From positions 1-64,000 of the forward strand of contig JAGQOW010000004.1 of the NCBI GenBank assembly GCA_020427155.1: a stretch of DNA of 64,000 bases, written 5' to 3'. Numbering within the stretch: the stretch's first letter is position 1; each line of letters starts with the position of its first letter. Below, piece by piece: positions 4,715-13,111 of the stretch. A model generated the notes under the pieces. The model was not told the DNA's origin. It did not search any database and worked only from the letters and a program-made list of their open reading frames with translations. Source of the DNA: Planctomycetales bacterium. GTDB taxonomy: Bacteria > Planctomycetota > Planctomycetia > Pirellulales > Lacipirellulaceae. A program made the position numbers and the translations under genes.

Positions 4715-4727
4715 CTTTTTGAAGCGA

Positions 4728-4790
4728 TCAGGGGTCGGCGGTCAGCGGCTCGTACCAAATAGCTAACTCTGATCTTTCGACTGCTGATCT
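4728..4790. repeat. Heptad-periodic imperfect palindrome, copy 1
   Basis: Left arm: the word TC(A/G)G recurs at 4728, 4735 and 4742, exactly 7 bases apart. Right arm: CTGA/TCGA/CTGA words at 4769, 4777 and 4784 (steps of 8 and 7) are the approximate reverse complement of the left arm. A spacer of about 20 bases separates the arms. It ends six bases before the xerC start codon, so it would lie in the xerC leader. Compare 7433-7473, 9671-9745 and 13036-13111. Confidence 0.65.
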
Positions 4791-5695: not shown

Positions 5696-6047
5696 GGGTC
5701 TCTCCTCCGTGCTGCCGGGCGGCACTCGGATTCGTCGCGCCTCGGGGGACTCTGTGTGTTGCCAGACAACACAGCTTAGGCAATTCGTTGGATAATTCGT
5801 TACGATTGTTGCAATTGTACAATAGTACCGGCTGTTGGCGCGTGCGAAATTGTTGACCCGACGCCTCCTGCAACGTACATATTTATCGACAACCCATGGT
5901 CAAATCTCCCCGTCGGTAGCATCATCGCCGCGCACCTCCCCAGCGCACGCTTGCCGAAGACCTCGGGTTGAAACCAAACCAATAGCCTGCGCTGGGGCCC
6001 CTCTGTAAGGGGCGTTCTAGTGCCTTATGCCGGGAGACGAAGGCGCG
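5696..6047. other. Intergenic spacer, small leader hairpin
   Basis: No gene is seen in these 352 bases. The stretch 5800-5830 is AT-rich for this genome and could hold a promoter. A hairpin with GCCCCT at 5997-6002 and AGGGGC at 6008-6013 lies 34 bases before the regulator start; it has no T-run. Confidence 0.3.
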
Positions 6048-7427
6048 ATGATACATGGATCTTTGTTGCTGGTCGACGACGATCAACAAGTACTCGAATC
6101 AATGGCCGAGTGGCTACGCGACCAAGGCCTGACGGTCGACACATCTTCCGGTTATGCTGACGCGCTCGAGCGGCTGCGGCAAAAAAGCTACGCCATGCTG
6201 CTCGTAGATGTACGGCTGCAAGACGGCGATGGCTTTGATCTCTTGGAGCAGGTGCGACGCAACTACCCCGAGAGTCACGTGGTACTGATGACCGGATATG
6301 GCGACGCCGACGCCGCCGTCGAGGCGCTGCGAGCTGGAGCTGCCGATTATCTGACCAAACCGTTGATCGACGACGAACTGCTGATGTGCATCGAGCGGGC
6401 CTTCGCTCAGCGCCAAGTGATCGAAGAAAACACACAGCTGCGAAAACAGCTCGACAAGCACAACGCGATGGACAACATCATCGGCCAAGACCCGCGGATG
6501 CTGAAGGTCTTTGATATGGTCGAGAGCGTGGCTGACACGAGGGCCACGGTGCTGGTCACTGGCGAGAGCGGTACCGGCAAGTCGATGATTGCCCGTGCGA
6601 TTCATCGACATAGTGATCGGTCGGCTAAGCCTTTTGTCGAGGTCGCTTGCGGCTCGTTGCCTGAGAACCTGCTCGAAAGCGAACTGTTCGGCCATGTCGC
6701 AGGGGCGTTTACCGGTGCTACCGGCGACAAGGTTGGTAAGTTTATGCAGGCCAATGGCGGCACCATTTTTCTCGATGAAATTGGCACCGCCAGCCCGGCA
6801 ATGCAGGTAAAGCTACTGCGTGTTTTGCAGGAACTCGAATTCGAACAAGTCGGTGGCAGCAAAACCTTTAAGGTAGATGTGCGGGTGATCTTGGCAACCA
6901 ACGAAGACCTGGCCGAGGCGGTTTCCAAAGGCACGTTCCGCCAGGATTTGTATTATCGCGTCAACGTGATCAATATTGAACTGCCCAGCTTGCGCCAACG
7001 GCAAAGCGACATTCCTTTGCTCGCACTGAGTTTCTTGCGAGAGTTGAAGGAAGACACGAATCGCCCGGTGAATGGATTCAGCGAAGAAGCGCTCGCCGCA
7101 CTAGAAGCATATCCGTGGCCGGGCAATATCCGTGAACTGCAAAACGTCGTTGAACGAGCTGTGCTGCTGGGCAAGGGAGACGTGATTTCGATTGGCGATC
7201 TGCCGCGGGATATTGTCGGCGGACCGAGCATCAGCCTGCCGCGTGTCGGCAACAAGACGCTGAAAGAAGCGCTCGAAGAGCCTGAACGTCAGATTATTCT
7301 TGACGTCTTGGAATCGAACAGCTGGAACCGCAACGCGACTGCCGATTCGTTGGGTGTCAATCGCACGACGCTTTACAAGAAGATGAAGCGGCTCGGCTTG
7401 GAGGATGGGAAGTACGCCTCGAGATGA
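6048..7427 (+). CDS. NtrC-family sigma-54-dependent response regulator
   Basis: Activator of sigma-54 promoters, 459 residues from ATG 6048, which has an AGG five bases upstream; an in-frame ATG at 6027 adds seven residues. Receiver domain: residues 5-120 with the acidic pocket Asp10-Asp12 and phosphoacceptor Asp54. AAA+ domain: Walker A GESGTGKS (172-179), an intact sigma-54 contact loop GAFTGA (219-224), Walker B IFLDEIG and the sensor/arginine-finger region. C-terminal Fis-type helix-turn-helix ends in [14 protein letters not shown]. The partner histidine kinase is not next to it, so this may be an orphan regulator or be served from elsewhere. Targets cannot be predicted from this window. 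Confidence 0.95.
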
Positions 7428-7432
7428 GGGGG

Positions 7433-7473
7433 ACAGACTTCAGTCGTCAGGGCTCGGAGATCTGAGAGACTGG
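7433..7473. repeat. Heptad-periodic array, copy 2
   Basis: Words of the form TCNG start at 7440, 7447, 7454 and 7461, preceded by ACAG at 7433 and followed by a CTG: six consecutive steps in one 7-base register. A weaker reverse-complementary set of words (TTGA, CTGA) follows at about 7492-7512. It lies between the converging regulator gene and the gene ending at 7542. Confidence 0.65.
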
Positions 7474-8159: not shown

Positions 8160-9659
8160 ATGAAACTCCACGACCTGCTCAACCACCACGGCATGGCGAA
8201 GAACCCATTTGCCGACGAAGATGCGCAGACCGATCCGGTGTTTCTCGGCCGCTGTCGCACCAGCACCTTTCATCCGAATTGGGACAAGGTTTACGGCGAC
8301 CCAACGAGCCCGGCAACCTCGTTGGTATTTGGCGAGAAGGGGGCCGGCAAAACCGCGATGCGGCTTCAGGTGGCAGCGCAACTCGAGGAACACAATCAAA
8401 CGCATGCAGATCGGCGGTCGTTTGTTATCGAGTACGACGACTTCAATCCGTTTCTCGATCGGTTTGCCGATCGACTGAGCGGCCGCAAACGGCGTAACCC
8501 GGCCAAGGTGCTCGCGGAATGGAAACTTTGGGATCACATGGATGCCATCCTCTCGCTGGGAGTCACGAGCATGGTTGATCGTTTGTTGGGCATCGCCCAA
8601 CCAAGCGGCTCGGCGGCCAACGCCATGCCAAACGACGCGGTCAAGCGGCTCGATCGATTTCAGAAACGCGACCTGTTGCTGCTGGCCGCCTGTTACGACA
8701 ACTCGCTGACAGAATCGTTTCAGTCGCGTTGGTATCGATTGCGGCGCAAGTTGTGGTACTTGCCATGGCAAAACTGGGCGACCCGCGGCATTGGCGTCGC
8801 GGTCAAGGCCGTGGTCTTAGGATACGTGTTCTGGTGGAAACGCGATTGGTCGCTCCTGCTCACGGTTTGGCCCTGGTTGATCATGGCCTTGGGCTGGGCT
8901 CCTTGGCTAGCGCAGGTTTGGAAGTGGTGGACACAGGCTTACGGAGTGTCGAAGAATCTACGCTGCGTGAATCGCGATGTTAACCCGCTGCGACAGGTCT
9001 TTATGCAGTTTGGCGCCCGAGACATCAATGGTCAGCCGCTGCCCAACAAGAAGCGCACCGACGATCGCTACGAATTGCTTTATAAGTTTCAGGGATTGCT
9101 CAAAGCCTTTGGTTTCTCGGGCGTGGTCGTACTGGTCGATCGGGTAGATGAGCCGCATCTAATCAATGGTTCGCCGGAGAACATGCGTGGCCTGGTGTGG
9201 TCGATGCTCGACAACAAGTTTCTCAAGCAACCGGGGCTGGGTTTGAAACTGCTGCTGCCAATCAGACTTTCAGAGTTTGTGCAGCGCGAGGGACACGATT
9301 TTTTTCAACGGGCGCGACTCGATAAGCAAAACATGATTCCGTCGCTCGAGTGGACCGGGCAGTCGCTGTACGACCTTGCCAACGCGCGGGTAGCAGCGTG
9401 TGCCCAGGAAGGTAGTTCGGCATCATTTCGTGAATTGTTTGCCGAAAACATCGAAGACAGTCGCCTGATCGAGGCGTTTGCCTCGTTGCGAGTCCCTCGG
9501 CAGTTATTCAAGTTTCTCTATCGCGTACTCGTGGCTCACTGTCAGACACATGTCGACAGCGCCCCCGTCTGGAAAATCGATGCCGCGACATTTGAAGCGC
9601 AGCTAGCACTTTTTCAGCGAGATCAGCAAGACGACCAGATCGGGCAAATAGCCGGCTGA
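8160..9659 (+). CDS. Membrane-associated P-loop ATPase
   Basis: A 499-residue NTPase with Walker A GEKGAGKT at 58-65 and a Walker B-like strand GVVVLVDRVDEP at 321-332, where the VDRVDE end recalls the DE of STAND/KAP-type ATPases. Between the two motifs lies a hydrophobic, Trp-rich block (about 211-256) able to cross the membrane twice, so the ATPase core is split by a membrane hairpin, as in KAP P-loop proteins. The N-terminal lead has FADEDAQTDP before the loop. The C-terminal third is helical with no recognisable sensor domain. The partner is unknown. The ATG at 8160 follows a pyrimidine-rich stretch without a clear Shine-Dalgarno sequence. Confidence 0.8.
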   Translation: MKLHDLLNHHGMAKNPFADEDAQTDPVFLGRCRTSTFHPNWDKVYGDPTSPATSLVFGEKGAGKTAMRLQVAAQLEEHNQTHADRRSFVIEYDDFNPFLDRFADRLSGRKRRNPAKVLAEWKLWDHMDAILSLGVTSMVDRLLGIAQPSGSAANAMPNDAVKRLDRFQKRDLLLLAACYDNSLTESFQSRWYRLRRKLWYLPWQNWATRGIGVAVKAVVLGYVFWWKRDWSLLLTVWPWLIMALGWAPWLAQVWKWWTQAYGVSKNLRCVNRDVNPLRQVFMQFGARDINGQPLPNKKRTDDRYELLYKFQGLLKAFGFSGVVVLVDRVDEPHLINGSPENMRGLVWSMLDNKFLKQPGLGLKLLLPIRLSEFVQREGHDFFQRARLDKQNMIPSLEWTGQSLYDLANARVAACAQEGSSASFRELFAENIEDSRLIEAFASLRVPRQLFKFLYRVLVAHCQTHVDSAPVWKIDAATFEAQLALFQRDQQDDQIGQIAG

Positions 9660-9670
9660 TAGCACGAGAG

Positions 9671-9745
9671 GCAGGCTTCAGAGACAAGTTTTCAGGCACC
9701 AGACCCCAGAGTTGGCTCTGAATTCTGATATCTGAGGCCTGACCC
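9671..9745. repeat. Heptad-periodic palindrome, copy 3 (clearest)
   Basis: Left arm: NCAG words start at 9671, 9678, 9692, 9699 and 9706, with CAAG filling the 9685 slot, so six steps keep an exact 7-base register. Right arm: CTG recurs at 9718, 9725, 9732 and 9739, again exactly 7 apart, and is complementary to the left words. The whole can fold into a long imperfect hairpin around 9710-9717. It lies between the ATPase gene and the lipoprotein gene starting at 9860. Confidence 0.75.
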
Positions 9746-9859
9746 TACCCAGCAGGATTGTCTTGACCGTTGTTGACGATTCTGAAACACTCCCGCCCGC
9801 AATGGGACCCGGGTTCTGAATTCCTGGGTGTTCAATCGAATGCCGATGGAGCGGTTGTC

Positions 9860-10390
9860 ATGCGAAATACCCTACTGTTGTTGGTGGCCGTGGTTTCTGT
9901 AGCAGCGAGCGGATGTTCCAAGCAGAGTTCGCCCGCAGATACAGTCGCCACATTCTTAGAAGCGGTTCGTGTGGGCAACTCGGAGCAGGCGAGCGCAAGC
10001 TTGACGCCCCTGGCGCAACAACGGATCAAAGAAAACGACATGGACTTTGCTCCACCGGCTAGCGAGACTGCCCAGTTTCGAGTCGGCAAGGTCGAGATGT
10101 TCGAAGAGGACAAGGCGTTTGTCGAGTCGGTTTGGATCGAGCAGGATGCCGACGGCAAAACTTACGACGAGTCGATGACTTGGGGATTGCGGCTTACTGA
10201 GGCTGGCTGGCGGATTTCGGGAATGGCGGCCCATATGGGCCCTGATCAGCCGCCGATCCTGGTCGACTTCGAGAATCCTGGCCAGATGGGCGGGGCTCCG
10301 AATACAACCCCCGCAGAGCAACAAAAGGGAGCTCCGCGCCAGGCCATGCAGACTTCCCAAGATCCGTTCAACCAGACCGTGCCACGCTGA
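9860..10390 (+). CDS. Small secreted lipoprotein
   Basis: Lipoprotein of 176 residues from ATG 9860; a longer frame from 9770 would add 30 residues before the signal peptide and is unlikely. The signal helix LLLLVAVVSVAA is followed by the lipobox ASGC (Cys at about 19). The following region (ADTVATFLEAVRVGNSEQASASLTPLAQQ) resembles NTF2-like or DUF4878-type lipoproteins, which begin with a helix carrying xVxxFLxAxxxGD and then a cone of beta strands; this is a pattern judgement only. The last 40 residues are Pro/Gln/Thr-rich and disordered. Role unknown. Same direction as the ATPase but separated by 200 bases with the heptad array. Confidence 0.75.
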   Translation: MRNTLLLLVAVVSVAASGCSKQSSPADTVATFLEAVRVGNSEQASASLTPLAQQRIKENDMDFAPPASETAQFRVGKVEMFEEDKAFVESVWIEQDADGKTYDESMTWGLRLTEAGWRISGMAAHMGPDQPPILVDFENPGQMGGAPNTTPAEQQKGAPRQAMQTSQDPFNQTVPR

Positions 10391-10847
10391 CCCCTGTCAC
10401 AAGCCCTAAGTCGTTACCTATCCGATGATTAGCGTCATCCTTCTCTGGCTCAACCGATTCCATACCTTTCGGGGCTTGGGGCTGTTTCGTTGAGGTTCTG
10501 AGGGCCAGCCAGTCTTGCAGAGTTTCGGTGGTTTGAGCCACTTGACACTCTACGCAGCCATGTTATCGTTTCGCCTAGATTAGCTAATCGGAAAAGTTGC
10601 TTGCAGCTTTTTCTGACCGGCTGAGACCGAGGTACTCGGGCTGTGAGCGCTGGATTGGCCACCGTGATCGACTTGAGCGCCCTTTAGCATAGAGCGTCGA
10701 CCCCGTTGCTGCAGGCCGCCGTAGCGCACAGGGGGGAAGGATTTTTGGCGGTCGCAGGGATCCCCGGCTGAAGTGGGGTCCTTTACAACGTCGTCTAAAC
10801 AAACAGTTTAGTAACCTAGTTTTTTGAGTCAGAGGGAGAAAACCAAG
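10391..10847. other. Long spacer before Cys-rich gene, with palindromes
   Basis: No gene is seen. Two perfect dyads are present: the 12-base palindrome GATTAGCTAATC at 10578-10589, and CTAAAC (10795-10800) with GTTTAG (10806-10811) about 40 bases before the Cys-rich gene. The second could be an operator or part of the promoter, but nothing identifies a regulator. Confidence 0.3.
10795..10811 (+). promoter_or_regulatory. Candidate operator dyad upstream of Cys-rich gene
   Basis: A perfect 6-base inverted repeat (CTAAAC-N5-GTTTAG) lies 37 bases before the start codon at 10848. The position suits an operator or a leader hairpin. No factor can be named. Confidence 0.25.
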
Positions 10848-11399
10848 ATGAATCGAATTATCACGTTGTCCGCCGCCTTGATGGTGTTGGTCGCTGGCAT
10901 GGCGGTTGTTGCTCCGAGCCAGGCCGAGGCCGGATTGTTCAATCGCAACAAGTGCTGCAAGCCAGCCAAGAAGTGCCGCAAGCCGCGCTGTTCGCGCAAC
11001 AAGTGCTGCGAGCCCGCCCCTTGCTGTGAACCAGCTCCTTGCTGCCAGCCTGAACCTTCCTGCTGCGAAGCTGCACCTGCTTGCGGTTGTGCCGCTGCCC
11101 CAGCTCCTGCTTGCGGTTGTGAAGTGGCATCCTGCGGTTGCGAGACCAAGTGCAACACTTGCTGCCTGAGCCGTCGCGAGCAGCGTAAGGCTCGTAAAAA
11201 CTGCTGTGCCCAGACTTGCGGTTGCGAGGTTTCGTCTTGCAGCTCGTGCAGTGCACCCGTCGAGAGCTGCAGCAGCTGCAGCTCTTGTGGTTCCGCTCCA
11301 GCAGTTGAAGGTTGCAGCAGCTGTGGTGGCGCCGCCCCTGCTCCTGCAGAAGCCGCTCCCGAAGCTCCTGCTGCTCCGGAAGCCGATGCCACGACCTAA
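10848..11399 (+). CDS. Cysteine-rich secreted protein
   Basis: A 183-residue protein with a clear Sec signal peptide (MNRIITLSAALMVLVAGMA..., cleavage near SQAEA-G) and 32 Cys in the mature part. The Cys come in repeated doublets (CCEPAPCC, CCQPEPSCC), in CGC triplets (ACGCE, SCGCE, TCGCE) and in SSCSSC runs. The tail is Ala/Pro/Glu-rich and free of Cys. ATG 10848 has the strong site AGAGGGAGAA upstream, which rules out the longer frame from 10824. Such proteins occur in planctomycetes and may be cross-linked cell-surface or wall components, but the role is not established. A strong terminator follows at 11441. The gene at 16465-16785 is a smaller protein of the same style. Confidence 0.88.
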   Translation: MNRIITLSAALMVLVAGMAVVAPSQAEAGLFNRNKCCKPAKKCRKPRCSRNKCCEPAPCCEPAPCCQPEPSCCEAAPACGCAAAPAPACGCEVASCGCETKCNTCCLSRREQRKARKNCCAQTCGCEVSSCSSCSAPVESCSSCSSCGSAPAVEGCSSCGGAAPAPAEAAPEAPAAPEADATT

Positions 11400-12404: not shown

Positions 12405-13028
12405 TCAGTTCTGGAACCACAAGACCAGCACCAGGATGACGGCTAGCACTAAGACCAATGTTCCCAGCATCACTGTCATTTGACGGGCACGCTCTTGGCG
12501 GCTGTTGAGTCGAGGACGCCGAGGGCGGGTTGCCAGCGAAAGTGCAGGGCTGCTCGAAGAGTCGCCACTTGCTTCACCAAGCGGCGGATCGGGGGCAACT
12601 GGCTCAACGGGCGGCGGAACTTGAAAAGCGGGAAGGACTTCGCTGGCAGGTTTCCAATGTTCCCAACCGGTGCGCCAGACCATGCTGTCTGACGCCACGC
12701 GGCCCTCGTTTACCCAGTCGCTCATTAGTTCGGTGTTGGCTGGTCCGTATTGCTCGCCCGCGGCGAGACGCACGTACCAAGCTTCGGGCAAGTTCTGATC
12801 GCTCGCCGGGGGCAAAGGAGCGCCAGACGAAGTTGCTATTGAGGTCGATGGCAGTTCTGGATCGGGAATCTGGGTATCGGGAGTGGGTTCGACTGAAACT
12901 GCCTTGCCGCCACTTACCGTGGGGACAATGAAGCGAGCGTCGCAATCGGGACAGATCCCCCGCTTGCCGGCAAGAAATGCCTTCACGTTAAGCTTATGCC
13001 CGTTGGGGCATAGAAACCGAATTCCCAT
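12405..13028 (-). CDS. Zinc-ribbon and GYF_2 domain protein with C-terminal membrane anchor
   Basis: A 207-residue protein in three parts. Residues 1-36 form a zinc ribbon (CPNGH ... CPDCDARF). Residues 83-130 form a GYF_2 domain (AWYVRLAAGEQYGP, then ELMSDWVNEGRVASDSMVWRTGWEHWKPA), a peptide-binding module common in planctomycetes. A Pro-rich linker leads to Arg-rich residues (RPRRPRLNSRQERARQ) and a single C-terminal membrane helix at 185-204 (MLGTLVLVLAVILVLVLW). It is probably anchored in the membrane with its domains in the cytoplasm. The start ATG 13028 lies directly against the heptad palindrome at 13036, which fills most of the divergent spacer shared with uppP. Confidence 0.88.
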   Translation of the reverse strand: MGIRFLCPNGHKLNVKAFLAGKRGICPDCDARFIVPTVSGGKAVSVEPTPDTQIPDPELPSTSIATSSGAPLPPASDQNLPEAWYVRLAAGEQYGPANTELMSDWVNEGRVASDSMVWRTGWEHWKPASEVLPAFQVPPPVEPVAPDPPLGEASGDSSSSPALSLATRPRRPRLNSRQERARQMTVMLGTLVLVLAVILVLVLWFQN

Positions 13029-13035
13029 AAGGCTC

Positions 13036-13111
13036 TAGGTTTTAGGCTGTAGGCTGTCGGGTCGGGGAGCTATAGTCTTTTCAAGTCTACAACCTATCGC
13101 CTACAACCTGA
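13036..13111. repeat. Heptad-periodic palindrome, copy 4
   Basis: Left arm: TAGG words at 13036, 13043 and 13050 and TCGG at 13057, exactly 7 apart. Right arm: CCT at 13093, 13100 and 13107 (with TCT at 13086), again exactly 7 apart and complementary to the left arm. The loop is about 22 bases. The word differs from copies 1-3 (TAGG against TCAG) while both arms changed together. It lies between the divergent starts at 13028 and 13130. Confidence 0.72.

Follow-up and report, generated by a model that had tools for sequence, protein, structure and literature searches.

Rehm et al. (2015; PMC4692102) report heptamer repeats of the form GGGNATC in Xanthomonas and GGGGA(C/T)T in Nostoc, with unknown function. 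According to that study, the Xanthomonas repeats form pairs that face each other from opposite strands (70 and 75 cases), 83% of the repeats keep their place, and they are discussed largely as G-quadruplex formers. Heptads also build the stems of the P6b loop in the Nostoc trnL intron (TDNGATT and NNTGAGT), as given in PMC4476775. For planctomycetes, PMC6749651 includes Rhodopirellula baltica in its satellite counts and mentions heptamer satellites for other bacteria. A search of the open-licence literature returned no account of such heptads in planctomycetes or Pirellula, which is no proof that none exists.

Here we analyse an element at 9671–9742 of a 64,000-nucleotide stretch of planctomycete DNA (the window). 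Its closest known kind, as PMC4692102 describes it, is the convergent heptamer repeat of Xanthomonas: both are 7-base, degenerate, mostly intergenic, near ORF ends and facing. Unlike the repeats of that study, the window element has a word, NCAGNNN, without GGG runs, and words vary among the elements of a genome. Its left arm contains no GGG, so the unit is not of a G-tract or quadruplex type. Certain planctomycete words do contain G runs (TCAGGGG, TCAGGGT), but many do not (TCAGCNN, TCAGTNG), and quadruplexes therefore cannot explain the form in general. Further, against the 83% place-keeping reported for Xanthomonas, the window array is missing in the nearest orthologous gap.

Other described systems share single features with the element. 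As in the trnL P6b loop presented in PMC4476775, 7-base repeats flank a stem-loop and change by whole units; that loop is part of a group I intron, whereas at the window element there is neither an intron nor an Rfam match. Like REP and REPIN sequences, described in PMC3733652 as short intergenic palindromes and reported there in Planctomycetes too, it is a short palindrome between genes, but it has heptad arms, no firm tag and no demonstrated link to a RAYT gene. It has one copy, where REP/REPIN elements have many near-identical genomic copies, and a scan for REP-type tags returned one GTAG, at 9745–9748 on the minus strand, and no CGTC. Finally, the parS heptads of pSM19035 in the account of PMC9499535 are likewise contiguous 7-bp repeats in both orientations; they consist of one fixed word on a plasmid, whereas here the DNA is chromosomal and the words are many.

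Architecture of the element

The element consists of tandem 7-base units converging on opposite strands, with both arms built on one word and lying 2 bases apart (Table 1). Direct reading agrees with the initial annotation, which had described six NCAG slots in steps of 7, one of them CAAG, followed by CTG in steps of 7: the slots at 9671, 9678, 9685, 9692, 9699 and 9706 read GCAG, TCAG, CAAG, TCAG, CCAG and CCAG, and CTG stands at 9718, 9725, 9732 and 9739. Its statement that the palindrome itself is 7-periodic holds for the TCAG/CTGA words. The right-arm words pair with left words 1–4 in a single stem register (i+j=19413), in which 5 of 12 variable bases match between the arms by eye. The left arm lies fewer than 50 bases from an ORF end, on the strand pointing away from that ORF (+12 from stop base 9659).

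Table 1. Coordinates in the window of the element and its flanking features
Feature	Position	Strand	Description
Upstream gene	8160..9659	+	499 aa; ATPase-like; P-loop-like motif GEKGAGKT by eye
Left arm	9671..9712	+	Six heptads, GCAGGCT TCAGAGA CAAGTTT TCAGGCA CCAGACC CCAGAGT; direct reading
Centre	9713..9714	.	TG, separating both arms; direct reading
Right arm	9715..9742	-	Four heptads, minus-strand reading TCAGGCC TCAGATA TCAGAAT TCAGAGC
GTAG tetranucleotide	9745..9748	-	Immediately beyond right arm; possible REP tag, doubtful
Promoter-like site	9763..9791	+	TTGACC-N17-AACACT; putative promoter of downstream gene
Downstream gene	9860..10390	+	Lipoprotein-like; ATG 9860 chosen by comparison with relatives; longer TTG start also listed

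Neither Tandem Repeats Finder nor an inverted-repeat search lists the array, and Rfam gave no match there, with one tRNA elsewhere in the window. A three-frame stop element, in which CTGA in steps of 7 would place TGA in every frame of one strand, was rejected by reasoning from sequences, with no count: the class word CGAGTNG (L098) has no stop.

Among runs of at least 4 words at steps of 4–12, the window holds one CAG run and one CTG run at step 7. It also holds one CAG run at step 9, two CTG runs at step 6 and one each at steps 9, 10 and 12. Because such runs occur at other steps too, either arm alone is less remarkable than the two together. Order-2 Markov simulation of the window (300 copies) produced a left arm (at least 5 CAG in 6 slots) 0 times, a right arm (4 of 4 CTG) 4 times, and both arms within 60 bases 0 times. 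The DNA fold of the array is unremarkable (z -1.25, with 23 of 200 shuffles equally good), and the RNA fold beats most shuffles (z -2.68, with 2 of 200 equally good). No intrinsic-terminator-like site (G+C-rich stem, short loop, T run) was found in 9600–9900.

Other heptad runs are visible in the window. At 7433–7464, a single-arm run (ACAGACT TCAGTCG TCAGGGC TCGGAGA TCTGAGA) begins 6 bases past the stop of a response-regulator/sigma-54 activator gene (6027–7427). Heptads of a different word (CTCTAGG TTTTAGG CTGTAGG CTGTCGG) lie at a gene border at 13025–13070, and a weak run (TCAGGGG TCGGCGG TCAGCGG) at 4721–4745 stands directly ahead of an ORF that by eye is XerC-like integrase. A very cysteine-rich ORF at 10824–11399 carries an 18-base tandem repeat at 11004–11050.

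Flanking genes and orthologous gaps

Neither flanking protein has a Pfam match at E 0.001. The upstream gene is present in 52 of 59 genomes, our own included, and named homologues of its product come from Planctomycetota metagenome-assembled genomes (87%), Bythopirellula sp. (82%) and Bythopirellula polymerisocia (74%), which suggests a Bythopirellula-like source within the order Pirellulales. Sites similar to the promoter-like sequence (TTGAC...CANACT) occur in 11 of 52 distinct orthologous flanks under a search pattern that misses the window's own site, and a consensus promoter scan found none at 9763–9791.

The initial annotation had proposed counting heptads gained or lost at this locus in close relatives. 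The nearest orthologous gap (L016, 87% protein identity) lacks the array; indels of 7 bases were found in one pair of copies elsewhere (L129/L130), and a gain of 14 in another copy (L345). Three orthologous gaps from other genera contain, by eye, heptads of other words: TSRGAGG in L017, AATGGGG facing CCCCATT in L034, and CATTNNN facing NNNAATG in L036. Overall, a lag-7 segment is present in 7 of 52 distinct downstream flanks drawn from 84 loci, the window counted and with three of the 7 (L172, L186 and L203) GC-rich and weak; in the same 52 flanks lag 18 occurs in 5, lag 14 in 4, lag 15 in 2 and the remaining lags in 0–1. Soon after the upstream stop, TAGCAC or TAGCA can be seen by eye in the window (9660–9665), in L016, L017, L023 and L025, and in others.

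The annotation had further named uniqueness, with no similar locus in the genome, as counting against its account. The exact sequence is indeed unique, the next best match among 14 genomes of the genus having E 0.18, but its grammar recurs in relatives.

A class of heptad arrays in Planctomycetota

We counted TCAGNNN ×4 against the same pattern read backwards, a control that may itself match other heptad words, so that the background is possibly overstated. Allowing up to 2 mismatches, our own genome (a 5.5-Mb assembly in 665 contigs) shows no excess, with 14 matches vs 16. Allowing up to 1, the pattern is present in 14 of 14 genus genomes, with summed counts of 205 vs 76; in our own genome the excess is negligible (3 vs 2), and G011, G007 and G003 show none. 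Here, too, the window differs from the repeats reported in PMC4692102: TCAGNNN is not a many-copy word in its genome, although it is in other genomes. Exact TCAGNNN ×4 occurs in 109 of 246 Pirellulales genomes, reaching 520 vs 3 in G039, 302 vs 2 in G237 and 221 vs 5 in G022, and in 47 of 159 genomes drawn from Planctomycetota. Preferred words vary by species and include TCAGTGG, TCAGCNN, TCAGAGG, TCAGGGT and TCAGTGT. TCAGGTG arrays sit at the starts of four G022 contigs (C7, C104, C153 and C280); such repeats therefore probably break assemblies and are undercounted.

In fetched regions, most of them chosen for containing TCAG hits and with one genome compared per species, 81 of 103 TCAG arrays lie outside ORFs, which hold 88% of the bases. 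By eye, TCAG heptads also lie within called ORFs near a possible ATG, as if in first codons (L124:9040–9081 and L114:9901–9949). Lag segments between ORFs were scored in 21-base windows with a minimum of 15 matches. In the window together with 20 stretches of our own genome, lags 7 and 14 have 10 segments each, lag 15 has 6 and no other lag exceeds 3. In 200 kb of unselected sequence from each of two further genomes, G006 has 4 segments at lag 7, 3 at lag 14 and no more than 1 at any other lag, and G027 has 6, 7 and 5 at lags 7, 8 and 9. Period 7 is thus special in two of the three sets, and in G027 lag 8 is equally common.

The facing layout is nearly constant. TCAG pairs face each other in 16 of 17 cases, as do 7 of 8 multi-array groups from other genera, the remaining one being two runs on the same strand. 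Across 146 genomes, exact TCAG ×3 arms gave 182 facing matches (29 genomes) vs 2 back-to-back (2 genomes), as summed matches in which overlapping registers of an element are counted repeatedly. A word-independent search yielded 261 intergenic lag-7 arrays and from them 59 adjacent pairs, for which the window pair is too degenerate to qualify. With at least 6 of 7 consensus bases required to match, the arms are inverted repeats in 35 of the 59 pairs and direct repeats in 0; at the same threshold, cross-element pairs from the same genome match in 18% of cases inverted and 4% direct. At 5 or more of 7 bases the inverted matches rise to 48, of which 18 have no TCAG consensus and 2 (L258 and L259) come from unselected sequence. 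In one G027 element, TCAGCAT ×6 abuts TCAGTTG ×6 face to face. Words differ among elements, and the arms of one element usually share theirs.

Placement, turnover and constraint

Elements lie nearer the stop side than expected under uniform placement (mean fraction 0.31, P 0.002, 20 usable elements). From 51 placed pairs this test took 35, leaving out 8 in divergent gaps, which have no stop side, and 8 overlapping a called ORF or in a tiny gap; a further 15 with fewer than 20 free bases were then dropped. Distances to gene starts were not used because arrays end open frames and so bias the called starts. Of the 51 placed pairs, 8 lie between divergent genes, a position that makes up 224 of 874 gaps of 80 bases or more; avoidance of it is not clear.

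Two copies from different places in the genome of a sister species (L129 and L130 in G008) align over ~150 bases at 83% with unrelated flanks; this single alignment has two gaps, each of exactly 7 bases, one per arm. We also studied 16 of the 31 matches in G048 and G064, chosen for their common form, and 4 of the 61 in G039. In the 16 copies, the 31-base arms match one consensus exactly in 12 left and 14 right arms, and the cores, of 11–20 bases, are divergent. One copy, L345, from another genus, has two extra heptads (+14). L344 and L347 are the same site seen in two species (88% over 659 bases); their arms are alike and their cores unlike. Near-identical arms combined with diverged cores in G048 and G064 point to constraint or conversion. 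The copies L337–L352 from these two genomes are palindromes of ~83 bases, certain cores of which look inverted between copies. In G039, the heptad arms of L354–L356 are nested, by eye, in a larger inverted repeat (gtagggtgggaccagcgagct...).

Within the unit, conservation is uneven. Each of 92 TCAG-class arrays from the genus was compared with its own consensus: mismatches are rarest at G (0.07) and most frequent at the final two positions (0.32), an unevenness equalled in 0 of 2,000 random rotations. For the three variable bases, the 12 pairs of G002 show no better agreement within elements than across them (self 2.32 vs cross 2.10). When all 29 pairs are taken, there is a weak within-element match, reached by 40 of 1,000 permutations, to which G027 and G017 contribute most. 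Selection of every base for a hairpin is thus unsupported in G002; perfect palindromes such as L258 remain compatible with it.

Discussion

The window element is one member of a class common in Planctomycetota that resembles known heptamer repeats and has its own words. At a probability of roughly 0.5, we favour reading it as a heptad-armed intergenic palindrome in slack DNA whose arms gain and lose whole heptads. The second arm would start as an inverted copy of the first or, alternatively, the arms would copy each other through fold-back or a cruciform during replication. Slippage would then add and remove 7-base units, so that the register survives as some bases of each unit drift, and the slack DNA from stop codon to promoter would tolerate the element. 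The initial annotation took the intact register to suggest recent origin or selection on spacing; this is one option and is not required, since whole-heptad turnover also keeps register. Whole-heptad change of the arms is observed in one pair of copies, L129/L130; the inverted-copy step we infer. A constant layout with a free word shared by the arms fits inverted copying and 7-base turnover and does not fit a single-word protein. Against the favoured reading, our own genome, G011, G007 and G003 have no TCAG excess, and lag 8 rivals lag 7 in G027. Something else acts besides slippage, in that conservation is uneven within the unit, unlike what plain slippage predicts.

That unevenness would suit a small DNA-binding protein occupying each heptad by analogy with Omega/ParB of pSM19035, a protein of ribbon-helix-helix type, for which PMC9499535 describes one dimer on each 7-bp repeat, the repeats being contiguous and mixed in orientation. 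We regard such a cooperative array as quite unlikely: arms are often 10–70 bases apart, and the word changes from element to element within a genome, 18 of the 48 pairs having no TCAG, so that one recognition word fails to cover the class. If the element were instead retained for an RNA stem-loop that terminates or shields the transcript of the upstream gene, the RNA fold, the start of the element 12 bases past the stop, the preference for the stop side and the near-perfect palindromes seen in certain elements (L258, G048/G064) would follow. No terminator-like site was found at 9600–9900, however, the variable bases are unmatched between arms in G002 and reach only the 40-in-1,000 level over 29 pairs, and divergent gaps are not clearly avoided, leaving this explanation possible but unlikely; under the favoured reading, an RNA hairpin at the 3′ end of the upstream transcript would be a by-effect. 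Coincidental register with no history behind it can draw on the uniqueness of the exact sequence and the missing TCAG excess in our own genome, but the pair appeared in none of the simulated windows and the class recurs among relatives, and we give chance almost no credence.

Movement also has to be weighed, as a REPIN- or MITE-like palindrome whose arms were heptad-expanded and which was moved by a Y1 (RAYT-like) or other transposase. Dispersed copies do exist (L129/L130 and the 16 examined places in G048 and G064), Y1_Tnp counts correlate with TCAG counts across 146 genomes (rho 0.53, uncorrected for genome size or kinship), and a GTAG lies immediately beyond the right arm in the window. Yet GTAG is only mildly common in the flanks of 48 other pairs (13 of 96, where the median tetramer has 5 and the commonest 22), and the window element is single-copy. 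Our own genome has 1 Y1 match; in relatives, a TCAG array, even of two slots, occurs within ~3.4 kb of only 4 of 20 Y1 loci, three of these 4 being in the heptad-rich G039 and G048. Three genomes with at least 5 TCAG matches have no Y1, and 6 with at least 8 Y1 have no TCAG match. Because most Y1 neighbourhoods are without arrays, we set the RAYT link aside and judge a mobile origin unlikely. More speculatively, and in our view very improbably, since in Planctomycetota the 7-base step and the facing layout persist and the word varies freely, some enzyme or repair route may write 7-base DNA steps whatever the sequence. A broken or stalled DNA end, for example, could grow through a series of short realignments, of telomerase-like or slippage type, before folding back or joining, which would yield two facing arms with a common word. 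By analogy, DRT10, a bacterial reverse transcriptase that PMC12632851 describes as able to make tandem-repeat DNA, may serve as a precedent. TCAGGGT-like words look like telomere repeats, a resemblance only.

Planctomycetota are rich in such elements, and why the units have seven bases and why the arms face each other become testable through strain comparison.
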